Source: Gammaproteobacteria bacterium (GTDB lineage Bacteria > Gemmatimonadota > Gemmatimonadetes > Longimicrobiales > Gaopeijiaceae). Taken from it: a stretch of 64,000 nt of DNA. Below are positions 11,073 through 55,412 of the stretch, piece after piece. Numbering within the stretch: position 1 is the first letter of the stretch; the number at the start of each line of letters is the position of its first letter. The position numbers and the translations under genes were made by a program. The stretch lies in NCBI GenBank assembly GCA_028819075.1, contig JAPPMM010000014.1, positions 124,001-188,000 of the forward strand, read 5' to 3'. The notes below the pieces were generated by a model. That model searched no databases. It worked only from the letters and a program-made list of their open reading frames with translations, and was not told where the DNA came from.

Positions 11073-12667
11073 GCGGGGGTGGCGCCGGCCGCGCGGTGAG
11101 CGCCCGGGCCCGCGAGGCCCCCATCCCCCAGGACGAGCGGGTTTCGCGCCGCTGGTTTGTGGAGCGGATGGCGTGGGTTTCTTCGGCCGCGGCGGCCGGC
11201 ACCCTGTTTGCGCGCACGCCGGCGGCCGCGAGCCCGCGCGGCCCGGCGGTGACGCCGGAAGCCTTCGGGGCGGGTGTCCGGCTTCAGGAGGTCGACGACC
11301 TCACGCAGCTCACGATGTCGGAGTCGATGACGCTGGTCCGGTCGGGCGCGCTGGCGCCGGTAGACCTCGTCGAGGCGTACGTCGACCGGATCGAGGCCTT
11401 CGAAGGGACCTACCAGGCCTACGCCGACCGTCCGTCGCGCGAGACGCTCCTCGCGCAACTGGCCCGGACGCCCGCCGACGAGCGGCGCGCCCCGCTACGG
11501 GGCATGTGCCTCGCGCCGAAGGACAACTGCTACACGGCGGATCTGCTGACCGAGGGCGGATCGCTTGTATACGAGGGCTTTCAGCCGGACTACGACGCCA
11601 CCTGCGTAGCCCTGATGCGCGCTGCCGGCGGCCTGGTCGTGGGCAAGGCACAGATGGGCAACCTGGCAGGCGGCAGGGCGCGCGTTTACGGCACCACCAC
11701 GCCGACCACGCGCAACGCCTGGACCCCGGACGACGTGCGCTACAGCCCGTCGGGATCGTCCTCGGGCACGGGCACGGCGGTGGCGGCCCGGCTCGCGGTC
11801 GCCGGGCTGGGAACCCAGACCGGCGGCTCGGTGATCGGTCCCTCCACCGCGCAGGGGCTGACGGCGGTCAAGCCCACCTTCGGCCGCATCTCCCTGCACG
11901 GCATCATCCCGCTCAGCTACACGCGCGACCACGTCGGCGCGATGGCGCGCGACGCCATGGACGCGGCCATCCTGCTCCAGGTGTGCGCGCAGCCGGATCC
12001 GAACGATCCGCGGACGCTCGGCCTCCCGCGGCCCCCCAACTACGCGCTCGCGGCGACACCGTTCGGAGGCGACCGGCCGCGCGTGCGCTGGACGACCCGG
12101 GTGGGCGTGTGGCCCGAGTATCTCGACGGCGACAACGAGCGCGTGAACGAGCTGAGGCGCGACTTCCTCACCGCACTCGAGCGCACGCCGGGCGTTCAGA
12201 TCGTGCCGGACGTGACCCTTCCAGATGACTGGGAAACCCTGACGTCACCGCCCTTGGGCGGCTCCCACGGCGACCCGACCGCGTTCTTCATCGAGCAACT
12301 GCGCGATGACGTGCGCAACTTCGCCGACCGCCTGCCGCGCTTCCTGAACGGCATGCTCCAGAGCGCCGACACCTACGTAAAGGTCCAGCAGGCCCGCAAC
12401 CTCCTTCGCCACCGCATGGTCACGCAGCTCTTCAACCAGTGCGACGTCGTGGTAACGAGCGCGGGCGGTTCGTTCGACGGGGTCGGGCTGCCGCTCGCGT
12501 GCACGCCCATCGGATTCGACACGGACGAGACCACCGGGGCGCGGGTGCCGCGCGGGGTTACGCTGGGGGCGCCGCCGTTCGGGGAGGAGCGGCTGCTCGC
12601 GGTGATCGCCGCGTACCAGGCGGTGACGGACTTTCATCGGGAGAGGGCGCCGGATCCGAGCGGGTAG
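11069..12667 (+). CDS. Tat-exported amidase-signature enzyme
   Basis: A 532-residue amidase of the Ser-cisSer-Lys family that hydrolyses carboxamides. A twin-arginine signal (SRRWFVERMAW followed by an Ala-rich core) lies at about residues 26-55. The catalytic Lys is in APKDNC, the cis-Ser in SGSSSGTGT and the nucleophilic Ser in TQTGGSVIGPS. Its start overlaps the preceding small gene as ATGA. It differs from GatA in its long leader and lack of gatB/gatC neighbours. The substrate is unknown. The linkage to a gamma-glutamyltransferase recurs at 42751-46376, suggesting a shared pathway. Confidence 0.9.
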   Translation: MSGGGAGRAVSARAREAPIPQDERVSRRWFVERMAWVSSAAAAGTLFARTPAAASPRGPAVTPEAFGAGVRLQEVDDLTQLTMSESMTLVRSGALAPVDLVEAYVDRIEAFEGTYQAYADRPSRETLLAQLARTPADERRAPLRGMCLAPKDNCYTADLLTEGGSLVYEGFQPDYDATCVALMRAAGGLVVGKAQMGNLAGGRARVYGTTTPTTRNAWTPDDVRYSPSGSSSGTGTAVAARLAVAGLGTQTGGSVIGPSTAQGLTAVKPTFGRISLHGIIPLSYTRDHVGAMARDAMDAAILLQVCAQPDPNDPRTLGLPRPPNYALAATPFGGDRPRVRWTTRVGVWPEYLDGDNERVNELRRDFLTALERTPGVQIVPDVTLPDDWETLTSPPLGGSHGDPTAFFIEQLRDDVRNFADRLPRFLNGMLQSADTYVKVQQARNLLRHRMVTQLFNQCDVVVTSAGGSFDGVGLPLACTPIGFDTDETTGARVPRGVTLGAPPFGEERLLAVIAAYQAVTDFHRERAPDPSG

Positions 12668-12708
12668 CGCAGCTGGCGAGTGTTTTCCGCATCAAGACAT
12701 TCTGCGCC

Positions 12709-14193
12709 TTACGCCTGCCCGCTCGAGCCACCTTGCGTTCTGCGCTGTCCCCGCACGACGTAGAACAGGAAGCCGGCGGCGGCGAGCAGGAGCCCGACAC
12801 TGATGGGCGATGAGATGAAGATCAGGGGATCTCCGTCCGAGAGGATCAGGGCGCGGCGGAAGTTGGACTCGAGCATCGGGCCGAGGATGAGGCCGAGGAG
12901 CACGGGGATCACCGGGTAGCCGAAGCGCCTCAGGACGTAGCCGAGGATGCCGATGCCCACGGCGACGTAGATGGCGAAGGTCGTCCGCTCCGAGGTGAAG
13001 GCCGCGACCACGGCCAGCGGCGCGATCGCCGGGAAGAGGATGCTTCGCGGTACGCGCGTGATGCGCGCGTACAGTGGAAGCAGCGTCAGGCCGAACACCA
13101 GGATCAGCAGGTAGCTGGCGAAGAATGCGGCGAAGAGCGGGGCGACGAGGTCCGCGTTCTCGGTGAAGAGCTGGGGACCGGGGGTGATGCCGTGAATCAC
13201 CAGGCCGCCGAGGATGACCGCGGTCACCGAGTCGCCGGGGATTCCGAGCGCCAGCAGCGGTATGAGCGCGCCTCCGGTCACGGCGTTGTTGGCAACCTCC
13301 GGAGCGACGATGCCCTCGGGGGCGCCCTTGCCGAAGCGATCCGGCTCGGGCGAGCTGCGGCGGGCTTCGCTGTAGGCCAGGAAGGCGGCCATGGCGCCGC
13401 CGGCGCCCGGGAGCGCTCCGACTGATGTGCCGATCACCGAGTTCTTGACGAAGGGCCTCCATCCCACGCGGCGCACCTCTCGCCACCAGCCCAGGGCGCC
13501 TTCCCGCCCGTCCGAGGGGTGATCCTGCGTCCTCGACGGCGGCAGGCTCGCCTGACGGTACAACTCCGTGAAGGCGAAGATGCCGATGACCACCGGAATC
13601 AGCGGCAGGCCAACCAGCAGGTTCACCGAGCCCAGGGTGTAGCGTGGGACCGGCACCAGGGGGTCGATGCCGACCGTCGAGAGCATCAGGCCGATGACGG
13701 TGGCGGCCATGCCCTTTGCCAGCGATTCGCGCGAGACCGTCGCGACCGCGACCAGCGCCAGCACCACCAGGGCGAACATCTCGGGGGACTGGAAGCGCAG
13801 CGCGATGCGCGCCAGTTGCGGGCTGAAGAGGACCAGAACCAGGCCCCCGGCCAGGCCCCCCACGACGGAACTGAAGGTTGCGATGCCGATGGCGGTGCCG
13901 GTCCGGCCCTGGAGCGCCATCGCGTTTCCGTCGAGCATGGTCATCGCGTTCGCGGGCGCCCCGGGAATGCGGAGCGCGATCGCCGCGATCGAGCCCCCGT
14001 AGAGGCCTCCGGTGAAGATTCCGACCATCATCACGATCGCGTTGGCGGCCGAGAGCTGGTAGGTCAGCGGCAGCAGCAGCGCGATGGCCAGGGTGGCGGT
14101 GAGGCCCGGGATCGCGCCGATGGCGATCCCCAGCAGGGAGCCGGCGGCGAGGGACAGGAGGAGGGTCGGGTCGAGGAATAGCTCGAGGTTCAC
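12709..14193 (-). CDS. tctA: Tripartite tricarboxylate transporter, large membrane subunit TctA
   Basis: This is the about 494-residue large permease subunit of a TTT-family secondary transporter. It has many hydrophobic helices, an N-terminal GAIPGLTATLA segment and a central SVGALPGAGGAMAAFLAYSEARR block, both TctA signatures. A GTG at 14193 gives the canonical N-terminus; the frame is open for 26 further codons that overlap the end of tctB. It is the last gene of tctC, TPP enzyme, tctB, tctA. The substrate is predicted to be an organic acid, but TTT subunits transport many carboxylates, so it cannot be named. Confidence 0.9.
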   Translation of the reverse strand: MNLELFLDPTLLLSLAAGSLLGIAIGAIPGLTATLAIALLLPLTYQLSAANAIVMMVGIFTGGLYGGSIAAIALRIPGAPANAMTMLDGNAMALQGRTGTAIGIATFSSVVGGLAGGLVLVLFSPQLARIALRFQSPEMFALVVLALVAVATVSRESLAKGMAATVIGLMLSTVGIDPLVPVPRYTLGSVNLLVGLPLIPVVIGIFAFTELYRQASLPPSRTQDHPSDGREGALGWWREVRRVGWRPFVKNSVIGTSVGALPGAGGAMAAFLAYSEARRSSPEPDRFGKGAPEGIVAPEVANNAVTGGALIPLLALGIPGDSVTAVILGGLVIHGITPGPQLFTENADLVAPLFAAFFASYLLILVFGLTLLPLYARITRVPRSILFPAIAPLAVVAAFTSERTTFAIYVAVGIGILGYVLRRFGYPVIPVLLGLILGPMLESNFRRALILSDGDPLIFISSPISVGLLLAAAGFLFYVVRGQRRTQGGSSGQA

Positions 14194-17392: not shown

Positions 17393-18628
17393 ATGCCCAT
17401 CTCCCCCGTCATCGTCGTTCCCGGAATCACGGCGTCGGACCTCCACGACGAGTACGAGCTGCCGCCCGAGGCCGTCTGGACCACCATGCTCAAGCGCCGC
17501 TACGACCGCGTCACGCTGCACCCGGAGGACCAGCGCTACGAGCTGCGCGAGCCGGCCCGGGTCATGCCGCGCGGCCCCTTCCCGCTCATCTACGAGGATC
17601 TGATCGAGGAGCTGCGCGACGGGCTCTCCGACGACCAGCCGGGGCCCGTGCCGGTGTTCCCGTTCGGCTACGACTGGCGCCTGCCGCTGGACTGGACCGA
17701 GGAGCGGCTAGCCGCCTTCGTGCGCGAGGTCATCGACAGAACGTTGCTGATGAAGCACTACCGGGACGACGAGGCGTATCGGGCCAACCCGACCGTGTCC
17801 CTGATCGGCCATTCGATGGGCGGGCTGATCATCGCGGGGTACGCCGAGAGGCTCTTCGCCGAGCGCATCGGGAGCCCCGCGGACGGCAGCCACCTCGTCG
17901 ACAAGGTCGTGACGCTGGGGACCCCGTTCCGGGGCTCGTACGAGGCCATCCTCAAGGTCGCCACCGGGACCAGCGAGCTTGGGGACGACTCCGGCAAGGC
18001 CCGGGAGCGGCGCATGGCCCGCATGACGCCCGCCCTCTATCACCTGCTGCCGGAGTCGGCGGGGTCGATCGCGTCCCAGGGCGGCATGGCGGTGAACTTC
18101 TTCCGGCCGGAAGCGTGGCAACCGAACGTGGTTCAGACCATCGAACATCAGGTCAGGGACTGGGACGTAACCGGGGCGGAACTCTTTCGGAAGATGCTCG
18201 ACGAGGCACGGGCGCACCGCGAGCGCATTTCGGGGCTGGAGCTGCCTGATGCCGGCGATGGCTGGCTCGCCATCGCGGGCGTCGACTCCAGGACCCGCAT
18301 CGGACTCAGGGTGACGCGCGACGAAAACGGCTTCCCGCGCTTCGACCTGCGGGGCGCGGAACGACGCAACGAGTGGGACTCCGACATCGGGGGCGACCGC
18401 CGCGACACCGGCGACGGCACGGTCCCGCTCGAGGGCGCGATCCCGCCCTTCCTGGACGAGGCGCGCGTGGTGTGCGTCACTCCCGGCGACTTCGGCTACT
18501 GGGAGATCCGCGACCGGGCGCTGTCCGCCGCCGCGGGCTTCCACGGGCTGCTGCCGAAGATGAACATGCTGCACCGGCTCATCCTCCGCTTCCTGCTGGG
18601 GCGGGGCGATCCCTACGGAAACACCTAG
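17393..18628 (+). CDS. LCAT-like lipase/acyltransferase (alpha/beta hydrolase)
   Basis: A 411-residue alpha/beta hydrolase resembling lecithin:cholesterol acyltransferase-type lipases. It begins directly with an IVVPGITASDL strand-loop that supplies the oxyanion region. FGYDWRLP is an LCAT-family motif, and the nucleophile elbow GHSMGG places Ser141. A GDGTVPL segment near residue 340 is typical of the region holding the acid. No leader peptide is present, so it is probably cytosolic or membrane-associated. It is divergent to tctC, with only 83 bases between start codons, so the two promoters must overlap. Its natural ester substrate is unknown. Confidence 0.82.
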   Translation: MPISPVIVVPGITASDLHDEYELPPEAVWTTMLKRRYDRVTLHPEDQRYELREPARVMPRGPFPLIYEDLIEELRDGLSDDQPGPVPVFPFGYDWRLPLDWTEERLAAFVREVIDRTLLMKHYRDDEAYRANPTVSLIGHSMGGLIIAGYAERLFAERIGSPADGSHLVDKVVTLGTPFRGSYEAILKVATGTSELGDDSGKARERRMARMTPALYHLLPESAGSIASQGGMAVNFFRPEAWQPNVVQTIEHQVRDWDVTGAELFRKMLDEARAHRERISGLELPDAGDGWLAIAGVDSRTRIGLRVTRDENGFPRFDLRGAERRNEWDSDIGGDRRDTGDGTVPLEGAIPPFLDEARVVCVTPGDFGYWEIRDRALSAAAGFHGLLPKMNMLHRLILRFLLGRGDPYGNT

Positions 18629-51244: not shown

Positions 51245-51413
51245 GGCACGGAGATGGGAGGTGCCGTCAACCTTCCAGACCCGGCCTGCGGCACGGCGTT
51301 AGTCCAAGTCCCATGCGGGATTGGCTCCAGAACCGCGTCGGGGTGGCCAAGCAGGTATCGTGGGGAGGATCACGTCGCGGTAGTTGGTGGACGTGGGCGG
51401 ACGTAACCATCGC

Positions 51414-52296
51414 CTACACGGCACACGTTCGGACGGCCATCTTGATGTGTCGGCGCAACTCCACCAGGATCTTCACTGTCTTTCTGAGGCTCGCGACGTC
51501 GTCCCATTTCATCGCGTAGGAACTGGCGTGGGCCAAGGGGTTTCTAAGGCCCTCGATCCTCTTGACCTTGTCCTCAAACTTCCCCTTGGACATCGGCACG
51601 GCACCGGCACTATTGGCTAGGGAATCGAACGGGAGACACTTCGTTAGGATCGTCCTCTTGTCACAGAACTCGGTGCATAGCAGCAGCTCAACGTCGCTCT
51701 CGTTGCCACCCCGCTTCTCGTACACCTTCTCCGCGCCTTCCAGCCGTTTGTTACTGATATGCTTCCGCCAACCGTCTCCCTCTGGGAAAACCGCTTTGAT
51801 CGCTTCGTACATCGTTAGCTCGAACCCGGTGACCAAGGCGAACACGGCAGCACGAACAGGCAGCTTCTGAAGGTCAGACCACGCTACCAAGCCGTTGATT
51901 CTCCCGCCGGAGACCACGAGCAAGGGCTTTGGTCGAACGCGGGAAACGTAGTCGAGAATCGTCGCGTCCGCGCCGATCAGGTCCGCTTCCGAGAGCGGAC
52001 GCAAGCGATCCCTGACGGGTGCTTCATCGTCCACGCCAGATGAGTTGATGGACCCTCTTGGCAGAGAACAGACCGACGATATTGCCATCGGCCGCCTCGA
52101 CGGGAAGATAGTCGAAGATCGGGTTGAGGTTGGCGGCCCGGACTTCAGCAAGGGAGTCGTCCAAGCGGCACACTCGCACGCTGGGGCCAATGCCCTCACC
52201 TTCGCGACTGGTGGCGATGAGCGATACCGTCAGGCTCCTTTGCATCCGTTCAAAGCCCTCACTCTGACGGAGCAGGTCCGGTTGTTCGCGGTTCAT
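51414..52296 (-). pseudogene. CBS-pair protein with C-terminal HEPN-like domain, frameshifted
   Basis: Two frames together encode one protein of about 294 residues. The N-terminal frame (52296-52024) encodes the first CBS domain (FDYLPVEAADGNIVGLFSAKR). The second (to 51414) encodes the rest of the CBS pair (PLLVVSGGRINGLVAWSDLQKL) and an all-helical C-terminal domain with RNPLAH, an Rx4H motif like HEPN ribonucleases, preceded by FCDKRTIL. Deleting one base at the CC of 52031-52032 would fuse them as LIWRDDEAPV. It is either a real pseudogene or a sequencing error. CBS domains bind adenine nucleotides, so a nucleotide-gated RNase is possible. Confidence 0.75.
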
Positions 52297-52554
52297 CACG
52301 ACTCCGTTGGGAGGTCCGGGCCGTTGTCGCTCCAGATCGAGGCCAAGGGGGAGCGGAGATGCTCAACCTGCATCCGATAGATCCCTGTTCATGATAGCCA
52401 GCAGGACCAGCGCAAGCGGTATCTTCCACACCGCCGCCGCTTGGGCGGCGAATCGGATGGCAGAAGCGCCCGGTGCGGGAGATGCTGGTGCGCTAAGGTG
52501 CGTGCCCGACGCGACGTTGAACATCGCGGTCTGGCCAAGGGGCGGCTGCGCCCT

Positions 52555-53025
52555 TTAGAACCCTCCGAGGTCTGCGCTCCCCGGAACGTGCGTGCAAGGG
52601 TCATGGTTTCCCCTATGGCTTGCCGACGCCTCTTTATCAGATGGTGCTTCCAGATTCTCCAACAGGTAGACGCCTCGTTCAACCATGGCGCGTTTGATCA
52701 TCTGCAGTTTCATTCTCGAAAACTCGTCTGCGGCTTCCACCTCCAGTTCACGCACTGCCTCGTTGAGGGCTTGACCGAAGATCCTTGCCGTGTTCTCCAA
52801 ACCCTCCCATCCACCTGCCGCCAAAAGGGCCGGAATCATCTCAAGGAGCTTCTCGACCTCTTGTAATTCGGTCCCGGGTTCTGCCGCCAAAGCTGCTGAG
52901 ATATTCTGGCTCAATACCGGCTGAAGGATGGCAACCGCCTCTCTCCGGTTCCTGCGCCGTCGGAGGACTGTCACTACTTGGATGGCACCGATAAAGGCGA
53001 TCACCGCGAGTATCGACAAGAACAT
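52555..53025 (-). CDS. Membrane-anchored protein of unknown function
   Basis: About 156 residues. One N-terminal transmembrane helix (about residues 3-20, FLSILAVIAFIGAIQVV) is followed by a positively charged RRRRNRR stop-transfer segment, so the rest is cytoplasmic and helical (ELQEVEKLLEMIPALL, EAADEFSRMKLQMIKRAMV). I do not recognise a family. The frame is open 17 codons further upstream. It stands between the CBS-HEPN gene and the integrase remnant in the accessory region, and a role with either is speculative. Confidence 0.6.
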   Translation of the reverse strand: MFLSILAVIAFIGAIQVVTVLRRRRNRREAVAILQPVLSQNISAALAAEPGTELQEVEKLLEMIPALLAAGGWEGLENTARIFGQALNEAVRELEVEAADEFSRMKLQMIKRAMVERGVYLLENLEAPSDKEASASHRGNHDPCTHVPGSADLGGF

Positions 53026-53220
53026 ATCCACGTGTTGGCTTACCCCTCTGAGAGACACGCAGGTGGGATGGAACAAGATGCGAAACCGATGCCTGCGGGG
53101 CGAGTCCCGCTGGTTCCGCTCGCCCCCGTGTAGCGTCCTGCCCTGCGCGTGGGGGTTGCGGCAAACAACTACTAGCGATCCGTCCCCGTTCGCTCCGGTA
53201 TCATAGATACTCGCCCGCTT

Positions 53221-53410
53221 CTACTCGACCACCCGCTCGGCGGCCTCGGCGAAGGTCGGGATGCCGATCAGCCGCCGTTTCTCAGCCAAGGGAACGCCCG
53301 CTCGCGCGGGTGAGCTTGCGGTTGGCGAGCGCCCGTTGACGGGCCGCGGCGAGCGAGACCGATTCGGCGACGCCGACCCGAGTTTGCGCTTGCGTCCTCG
53401 GCAACATGTA
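53221..53410 (-). pseudogene. Remnant of a P4-type tyrosine recombinase (integrase)
   Basis: Pieces of an integrase N-terminus are spread over two frames: RGRKRKLG, then ESVSLAAARQRALANRKL in a second frame, then PLAEKRR...IPTFAEAAERVVE in the first frame, ending at a stop. These match the DUF4102 N-terminal domain and the start of the core-binding domain of P4-like integrases. At least two frameshifts and a truncation show decay. No catalytic domain or att repeat is visible. It marks a former integration event. Confidence 0.6.
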
Positions 53411-53446
53411 GGGGAGACATAACATAATGTGAGGTTGATATTACAG

Positions 53447-53711
53447 CTAAGCGCCAAACCCGATAGCTTTCGCTGGTTGAACGCTCAGGGGATTCCGCTC
53501 ACGGGCTCTCCTATGGACTGTCGCCAACGCCTGCTGCTCCAGGCTAGGCAGGCCATCCTCCCGCATCCCTTCCAAGTGGAACTCGATGGCATCTCGGATG
53601 TTGCGGGCAACTTCGTCCCTAGTTCCGCCAGTCGCCACGCATCCCGGTAGATCCGGCACGTACGCTGCGTAGTTGCTCGGTCCTTTTTCCGATCACCACT
53701 GGGAACTTCAT
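53447..53711 (-). pseudogene. hicB: hicB-like antitoxin gene with a 1-base frameshift, no hicA
   Basis: MKFPVVIGK in one frame continues as SNYAAYVPDLPGCVATGG in another, then DEVARNIRDAIEFHLEGMREDGLP, the complete HicB core. An extra A in a five-A run (plus strand 53684-53688) separates them; with four A's the gene would encode about 87 residues. GGAGGAA precedes the ATG. HicB normally neutralises HicA, an RNase, but hicA is absent on both sides. The gene follows the AlbA_2 ATPase gene by 20 bases. Confidence 0.72.
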
Positions 53712-53731
53712 CGGATTCCTCCCTTCCTGGG

Positions 53732-55174
53732 TCAAGCCTGCCCTTGGACATCCTCCCCATCCACCGCCGCCAGTACTTCCCGCCCTGCCGCAGTAGTCCG
53801 GTACCTCTGGTTCCTGCTCCTGGGCTTGTCGGGCACGGTCATCTCGATCCATCCAGCCCCCAGCAGCGGCCGGAGAACCTGGTTCCGGAACTTGGTGCGG
53901 TCCTTTCTGCCCGCCATCGCCATGAGCTCCGTGATAGGCTGCGCGGTCAACGACTTACGGAGAATCCTGACTTGGTGCCGACTTGGTGCCGACTTGGTGC
54001 CGACTTGGTACCGACCTGGTTCCTTGACGGCTGCGATCGAACCATCGCCTCCCAGCGCCGGGCGTCGGAAGGTCACCGTCACCCAGTGTTCCGACACATC
54101 GATCACCGGAGCGGGCACTCTCCACTCGCGGCAGAGATCGCGAATGCGCCGGATGCCCGATCCGATGTGCTCCACGGCATCCATGCGGTGCAGCATCCCG
54201 AAAAGCAGGGGATTGCGCGGAACGCTCTTCACGCCCAGTTCGGCCTCGGTCATCCCCGCCGGAAGGCCACCCGGGCTCACAACCTCGAGCCGATCATGAT
54301 ACAGGCAGACCTGAACGTTGGCCGCGGAACGGTAGTCGCGGTGCGCGACCGCGTTGACCACCGCCTCGCGGATCGCGTCCAGCGGGAGTTCGGGACGCTC
54401 TTCCCGGTTCACCGAACCCGTGATGACGTAGCGAACGTTGATCTTCGAGCGGACCCACGTCATGGCGCCGTCGATGATCGAGAACGCGTCGTCGGCGAAG
54501 TCGCGCCGATCCAGAATCTCCGTCTTCGTGGTGCCGAAGAACAGCGCGCAGGACAGGTGGGCGCTCACATGGAATCTCCGGATGTCCTTCGCGAGCAGCC
54601 ACGCCCCCGCGTTGGTGACTCCACCATCGGTGGTCAGGAGATCCAGGTTGGCCAGAGCGGTCTCGGGCTCCATGTGAGCCGGAATCCTCGCCCTCCGGCG
54701 GAACGTCGTCCAGGTCTCGTCGTCGAGGTCGTCGTCCAGCGAGAATCGGCGACACGGGCTCTCATCGAAGCGGATTGCGCCGACCGCGAAAAAGAACTCC
54801 CGGATCTCGTCGCGCGACATCTGCTGCGACGACGCCCCGTGGCGCACGAAGAACTTGCCTCCGAACGAGTAGGGCTTGCCACGCTGCGCGGGCACCCTGA
54901 CGGCGAGCACATCCCCCATGCTCTCCATGTCCACGCTGATCGAGGGATCGGCGGACCGCGCGACCGATTGGACCTGGGACTTCAACCGGTTGTGTCCTTC
55001 GACGCCGCGAACCGCGCCGTCGTCGTCCACGCCGAGCAGGATCACGCCGCCGGTCGCGTTGGCGAACGCGCAGATCTCGCGCCCCAGGTCGGACCTCAGC
55101 GACCGCTTGAACTCCACCTCGGACCCTTCGCCGAGCGCGACCAGGTCGGACAGGGCCTTCAACTCACCTCTCAC
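53732..55174 (-). CDS. AlbA_2 (Schlafen-like) RecG-related ATP-binding protein
   Basis: About 480 residues. An N-terminal AlbA_2/Schlafen-like domain (EVEFKRSL, CAFANATGGVILLGVDDDG) is followed by an HATPase_c_4-type domain (REAVVNAVAHRDYR, GSGIRRIRD) and a C-terminal winged-helix-like part (ITELMAMAGRKDRTKFRNQVLRPLL). Such proteins are often annotated as transcriptional regulators or RecG-related and cluster in accessory regions. A GTG at 55174 was chosen over a TTG four codons earlier. Its linker contains four 11-bp repeats. hicB follows. Confidence 0.83.
   Translation of the reverse strand: MRGELKALSDLVALGEGSEVEFKRSLRSDLGREICAFANATGGVILLGVDDDGAVRGVEGHNRLKSQVQSVARSADPSISVDMESMGDVLAVRVPAQRGKPYSFGGKFFVRHGASSQQMSRDEIREFFFAVGAIRFDESPCRRFSLDDDLDDETWTTFRRRARIPAHMEPETALANLDLLTTDGGVTNAGAWLLAKDIRRFHVSAHLSCALFFGTTKTEILDRRDFADDAFSIIDGAMTWVRSKINVRYVITGSVNREERPELPLDAIREAVVNAVAHRDYRSAANVQVCLYHDRLEVVSPGGLPAGMTEAELGVKSVPRNPLLFGMLHRMDAVEHIGSGIRRIRDLCREWRVPAPVIDVSEHWVTVTFRRPALGGDGSIAAVKEPGRYQVGTKSAPSRHQVRILRKSLTAQPITELMAMAGRKDRTKFRNQVLRPLLGAGWIEMTVPDKPRSRNQRYRTTAAGREVLAAVDGEDVQGQA
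53971..54014 (-). repeat. 11-bp tandem repeat within the AlbA_2 gene
   Basis: Four copies of CTTGGTGCCGA (the last CTTGGTACCGA) run head to tail. As 11 is not a multiple of three, gain or loss of a copy would shift the frame of the C-terminal winged-helix part. The present number keeps the frame open. Confidence 0.85.
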
Positions 55175-55412
55175 ACATCCCCCCAAAGCTCCCGCGGATT
55201 ACGCGCTCATTGTCTCGTCCGCCAGGGATGCGCTCCCAGGCTGCCCGGTGACACCCAACGCTACCGCGTGCGATTAACCGGGGTCAATGGAAGAATGGGT
55301 CGCCAACCGGTGGATCTGGGATGCACGTACATGTCGCGCCGCTGGCTCGCCTGCGCTCCGCGCCGTATCATCGTGGTTCCTGCAACGACCCGATCCACAG
55401 GAGGTTCGTCCC

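Follow-up and report, generated by a model that had tools for sequence, protein, structure and literature searches.

A frame-shifted gene for a predicted CBS-HEPN protein, apparently related at a distance to the phage-defence protein DS-11

We investigated two overlapping minus-strand reading frames in a 64,000-nucleotide stretch of DNA (the window) from a genome of the phylum Gemmatimonadota. The original prediction had read these two frames as a single protein, and both were found to be present, each being homologous to a part of one protein in intact relatives. Since the homology in the upstream frame ends at GLFSAK (~52057) and has picked up in the downstream frame by ~52034, the frameshift was placed between these two positions, and a single open frame covering both domains is absent from the window copy. 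A single extra base had been proposed as its cause; the frameshift itself was confirmed, in both assemblies of the species, while the frame offset fits two missing bases as well as one extra base. The coordinates of the genes and features are collected in Table 1.

Table 1 Features of the CBS-HEPN locus and of the surrounding insert, in window positions.
Feature	Position	Strand	Remarks
Upstream frame	52024-52299 (ATG at 52296; coding 52024..52296)	-	90 aa; first CBS domain (...FDYLPVE...GLFSAK), preceded by a short helical N-terminal region
Downstream frame	open 51414-52199 (homologous part 51414..52034)	-	Rest of the CBS pair and HEPN
Frame-shift stretch	52034..52057	-	Homologues keep an intact frame here; same break in the second assembly of the species
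Phe codon (IFDYLPV)	52114..52116	-	Same alignment column as Tyr157 in E. coli DS-11, which defence there requires
HEPN (Swt1-like) domain	51417..51878	-	AlphaFold2 pTM 0.82, all-helical
Rx4H motif RNPLAH	51528..51545	-	R and H invariant in homologues
~4.0-kb insert	51299..55335	.	Absent from same-genus genomes
ORF of unknown function, 173 aa	52555..53076	-	Inside the insert
Possible tyrosine-integrase remnant (5' part of the gene)	53221..53457	-	Without Pfam match; same-genus genomes contain repeats of related DNA
Short HicB-like antitoxin ORF	53447..53659	-	PF15919, 35.3 bits (cut-off 27)
SLFN_AlbA_2 + HATPase_c_4 + Fic-like C-terminal protein	53732..55186	-	SLFN_AlbA_2, 71.7 bits

The second assembly of the species (L012) can be aligned ungapped with 14 kb of the window, with differences at 12 positions. 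Because it carries the same break, the frameshift is probably real, and a sequencing error is disfavoured as its cause, although none of the differences falls within the insert, so that the two assemblies may not represent independent alleles. L012 and contig C14 of G312, both of 50,125 bases, are probably one contig, and the frameshift has therefore one confirmation, not two.

In comparison with L013, the closest intact homologue (79% identity over the downstream frame of the window), the dN/dS ratio is ~0.38 for the upstream part and ~0.22 for the downstream part. At the sites where the outgroups agree, 3 amino-acid changes fall on the window branch and 4 on the L013 branch, i.e. without an excess on the window branch. 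The dN/dS values together with this lack of excess indicate that the break is probably recent, or else that the halves are still in use. The two overlapping frames are one gene, frame-shifted probably recently, in which a nucleotide-sensing type of domain, a CBS pair, is fused to a predicted HEPN RNA-cutting domain; the whole protein is probably no longer made from the window copy, with a presumed loss of function.

A split that is functional would yield either two proteins, the first CBS domain alone and a second CBS domain with HEPN restarted at the GTG at 52034, or one protein by programmed frameshifting. This would agree with the presence of the frameshift in both assemblies, with a downstream frame that is open, conserved and free of excess amino-acid changes, and with the overlap between the GTG at 52034 and the stop end of the upstream frame. 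Nevertheless, the absence of decay fits a recent break equally well, nearly all other members of the family have the full frame unbroken, a CBS pair in two pieces should not normally form a nucleotide site and, by eye, no obvious slippery site or Shine-Dalgarno sequence precedes the GTG at 52034, so that we regard a functional split as improbable and decay of a once intact gene as the better reading.

The gene lies within the insert, at the borders of which the flanks are joined directly in five same-genus genomes. At this empty site, position 51298 is followed directly by 55336 in G007 and G008, and 51250 by 55318 in G003, G004 and G005; no tRNA that could serve as an insertion site is present in the window. 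The HicB and AlbA_2 neighbours that had been named were both recovered by their Pfam domains (Table 1). The proposed integrase remnant has no Pfam match; what stands of it is related DNA of ~190 bp (window 53209-53401), which recurs at many places in several same-genus genomes with 71-81% identity and may represent the 5' part of an integrase gene that is itself repeated. No clear defence system was recognised by PADLOC among the window neighbours tested, and the defence island that had been expected here was instead met beside the intact homologues (see below).

The intact L013 protein was modelled by AlphaFold2 (pLDDT 84, pTM 0.80) as a CBS pair followed by a helical C-terminal half and, with the model of the window HEPN half, this bears out the CBS pair and helical C-terminal domain of the original prediction. 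In Foldseek searches the L013 model matched nucleotide-bound CBS pairs (7cfi with ATP and 4gqy with AMP) with E values of ~1e-5 to 1e-4. A helical bundle is thus predicted after the CBS pair, as proposed, but the window HEPN half resembles solved HEPN structures weakly, the best match being MntA-HepT (prob 0.82, E 0.07, TM ~0.3), and a HEPN match to Csm6 is also weak (E 0.067). L005 and L017 exceed the cut-off of the Pfam CBS profile (PF00571), and the upstream piece of the window stays below it, at 12.9 bits. The Pfam HEPN_Swt1 profile (PF18731) scores 30.1 bits in L008, against a cut-off of 27.5, and 14.7 bits in L014; the window's own pieces gave no Pfam HEPN match, and PADLOC run on the family itself returned only weak matches of generic HEPN or CARF type.

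A lone Rx4H motif is near chance for a protein of this size, with ~0.4 per 290 aa by our own estimate. An alignment of 11 homologous C-terminal halves (A4) has just five invariant columns, of which the R and the H are two. In L013 numbering, R249 and H254 are invariant in alignment A2, and RNxxAH is invariant in alignment A6, which takes in proteins of haloarchaeal plasmids. The conservation of the two residues, borne out from bacteria to these plasmids, is to be considered the strongest evidence for a HEPN domain. It is highly improbable that the helical domain at the C terminus is inactive as a HEPN nuclease or carries its motif by accident: the missing Pfam match of the window piece and the weak matches to solved structures would be in line with this, but the invariant R and H, the Pfam match of L008 and the alignment of both domains with DS-11, whose HEPN residues are required (PMC13092281), argue for a genuine HEPN domain.

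The intact relatives, of ~260-300 aa in one frame (L013, L014, L015, L016, L005, L006, L007, L008, L010 and L011), have from 79% down to ~21% identity to the window protein and form with it a compact CBS-HEPN family. They were found in other Gemmatimonadota MAGs and in MAGs named Terriglobia and 'bacterium'. Weaker matches come from haloarchaeal plasmids, the spread beyond Gemmatimonadota being thinly sampled; these were the only matches, and weak ones, in the plasmid collections, while no match was obtained in the phage collections and no relative was found in the viral contigs scanned. A further member, L065 (G060 contig 115), has an apparently interrupted frame, its two parts being matched in different frames, and no R/H motif can be recognised in the frame that was read.

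The search for intact homologues and their neighbours, which had been suggested, showed several intact homologues beside defence genes. Gabija and a type I restriction system with an Abi_C protein are near L015, and MzaD/MzaE near L014. IetAS lies directly downstream of the CBS-HEPN gene in L056 and L061, the latter with PglX also nearby, and a TIR effector domain is encoded near the gene in L058. On contig 64 of G189, a true DS-11 gene and a compact CBS-HEPN gene lie ~5 kb apart (11901-12833 and 17546-18373). The background rate for defence neighbours was taken for IetA only: of 11 genomes, 3 had IetA at full strength as a single copy, which in two of these three adjoins the CBS-HEPN gene. 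Around L013, no obvious defence genes were seen within ~8 kb, and the neighbour tested was not a defence gene.

Proteins of the CBS-HEPN kind are already known. HEPN-CBS fusions of the Abi2/Swt1 HEPN group were listed in 2013 by Anantharaman et al., who proposed nucleotide sensing (PMC3710099), and the idea was tested in 2026 in DS-11, a one-protein CBS and HEPN phage-defence system found by DefensePredictor (PMC13092281). In DS-11, the Y157A substitution in the CBS domain abolishes defence, as do HEPN catalytic mutations; an unknown adenine derivative was proposed as ligand, adenine-nucleotide gating being deduced from the mutants (PMC13092281).

The DS-11 family is represented by NCBIfam NF053863 (DS11_antiphage, CBS domain-containing anti-phage protein), with a curated cut-off of 260 bits. 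Scanning with this profile gave weak matches in 7 of 12 rows, with 17 bits for L013, 31.3 bits for L014 and at most ~31 bits among the members listed, whereas an E. coli DS-11 family protein scores 396 bits and six further genomes of the phylum encode true members, above the cut-off. In a profile comparison with hhalign, the window family aligned with DS-11 proteins over 221 columns, spanning both CBS and HEPN, with an E value of 6.4e-16. Both have a CBS pair followed by HEPN in one protein, both have the R-N-x-x-x-H motif and both occur in a defence context. The E. coli protein has a Tyr at residue 157; the position aligned with it is F/Y in the close subfamily of the window, with Phe in the window itself, and such an aromatic residue is not evident in the more divergent L008 and L010. 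In contrast to DS-11, the window family lacks the N-terminal domain of ~100 aa before the CBS pair, and its members, at ~260-300 aa, are only ~20% identical to DS-11. Membership in DS-11 was therefore rejected, on a score far below the cut-off and an architecture without the N-terminal domain, and the window family is, as judged from these comparisons of sequence, a distant relative of DS-11.

The likeness to the Abi2/Swt1-group fusions, which were compared by description only, extends to the domain pairing, an active motif in a Swt1-like HEPN and the proposed nucleotide sensing, but their named examples (alr3009 and a Pelobacter protein) can add an HD domain (PMC3710099). In the CARF-HEPN RNases Csm6 and Csx1, a dimeric HEPN RNase is likewise joined to a domain that binds a ligand, but the window family would sense through a CBS pair and not a CARF Rossmann fold, and no CRISPR link was seen in the loci read. 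The MntA-HepT toxin-antitoxin system shares the HEPN helical bundle and is the top, but weak, Foldseek match; HepT, however, is a stand-alone toxin paired with an MNT antitoxin, whereas the sensor of the window family is fused and no MNT was seen.

Considering the domain predictions, the conserved motif, the homology to DS-11 and the neighbours of the homologues, we favour with fair confidence that the gene is the decayed form of a compact phage-defence effector, a HEPN RNase gated by a CBS pair and homologous to DS-11. The ancestral gene would have encoded a one-protein effector, whose N-terminal CBS pair may bind an adenine nucleotide or a related signal made or changed during infection. The CBS pair would hold the fused dimeric HEPN ribonuclease off until this signal comes, and the freed HEPN would then cut RNA and stop the infected cell. 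The gene, within its 4-kb insert, would later have been broken by the frameshift, probably recently. The CBS-gated HEPN effector interpretation is supported at the level of the family, and the copy here is broken.

A regulator of RNA in housekeeping or stress, in which CBS would sense the energy state and HEPN would tune RNA stability, would be in keeping with the ligand-regulated RNA stability suggested for HEPN-CBS proteins by Anantharaman et al. (PMC3710099). The patchy presence of the family (10 of 196 relatives) and the strain-variable insert nevertheless fit defence better, as do the defence neighbours of the homologues and the homology to a validated defence protein, which makes such a regulator unlikely and the defence effector the preferred reading.

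As a defence effector, the compact CBS-HEPN family may even be a separate system from DS-11, one that perhaps responds to another nucleotide or cooperates with IetAS, a possibility we regard as tentative. The family occurs in Gemmatimonadota, in other bacteria and in haloarchaea, and stands twice beside IetAS. For this genome alone, the finding amounts to one decayed gene in a small insert. For the CBS-HEPN kind of defence, it extends the known range beyond DS-11 to a branch that is compact and divergent and reaches as far as haloarchaeal plasmids, the natural variation of which branch could be used to find the CBS ligand left open by the authors of DS-11.

Two further proteins were observed in the neighbourhoods of the homologues. 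At L058:12919-14985 (G037 contig 38), ~2.6 kb from the CBS-HEPN gene, one protein joins an N-terminal CAP12/Pycsar-type TIR domain (102.5 bits) to a chaperonin domain of Cpn60/TCP-1 type (147.2 bits), which is an unusual combination of domains. At L015:4883-6103, on the minus strand, a protein with HAD hydrolase, phosphoribosyltransferase-like and zinc-ribbon parts adjoins Gabija in the defence island.
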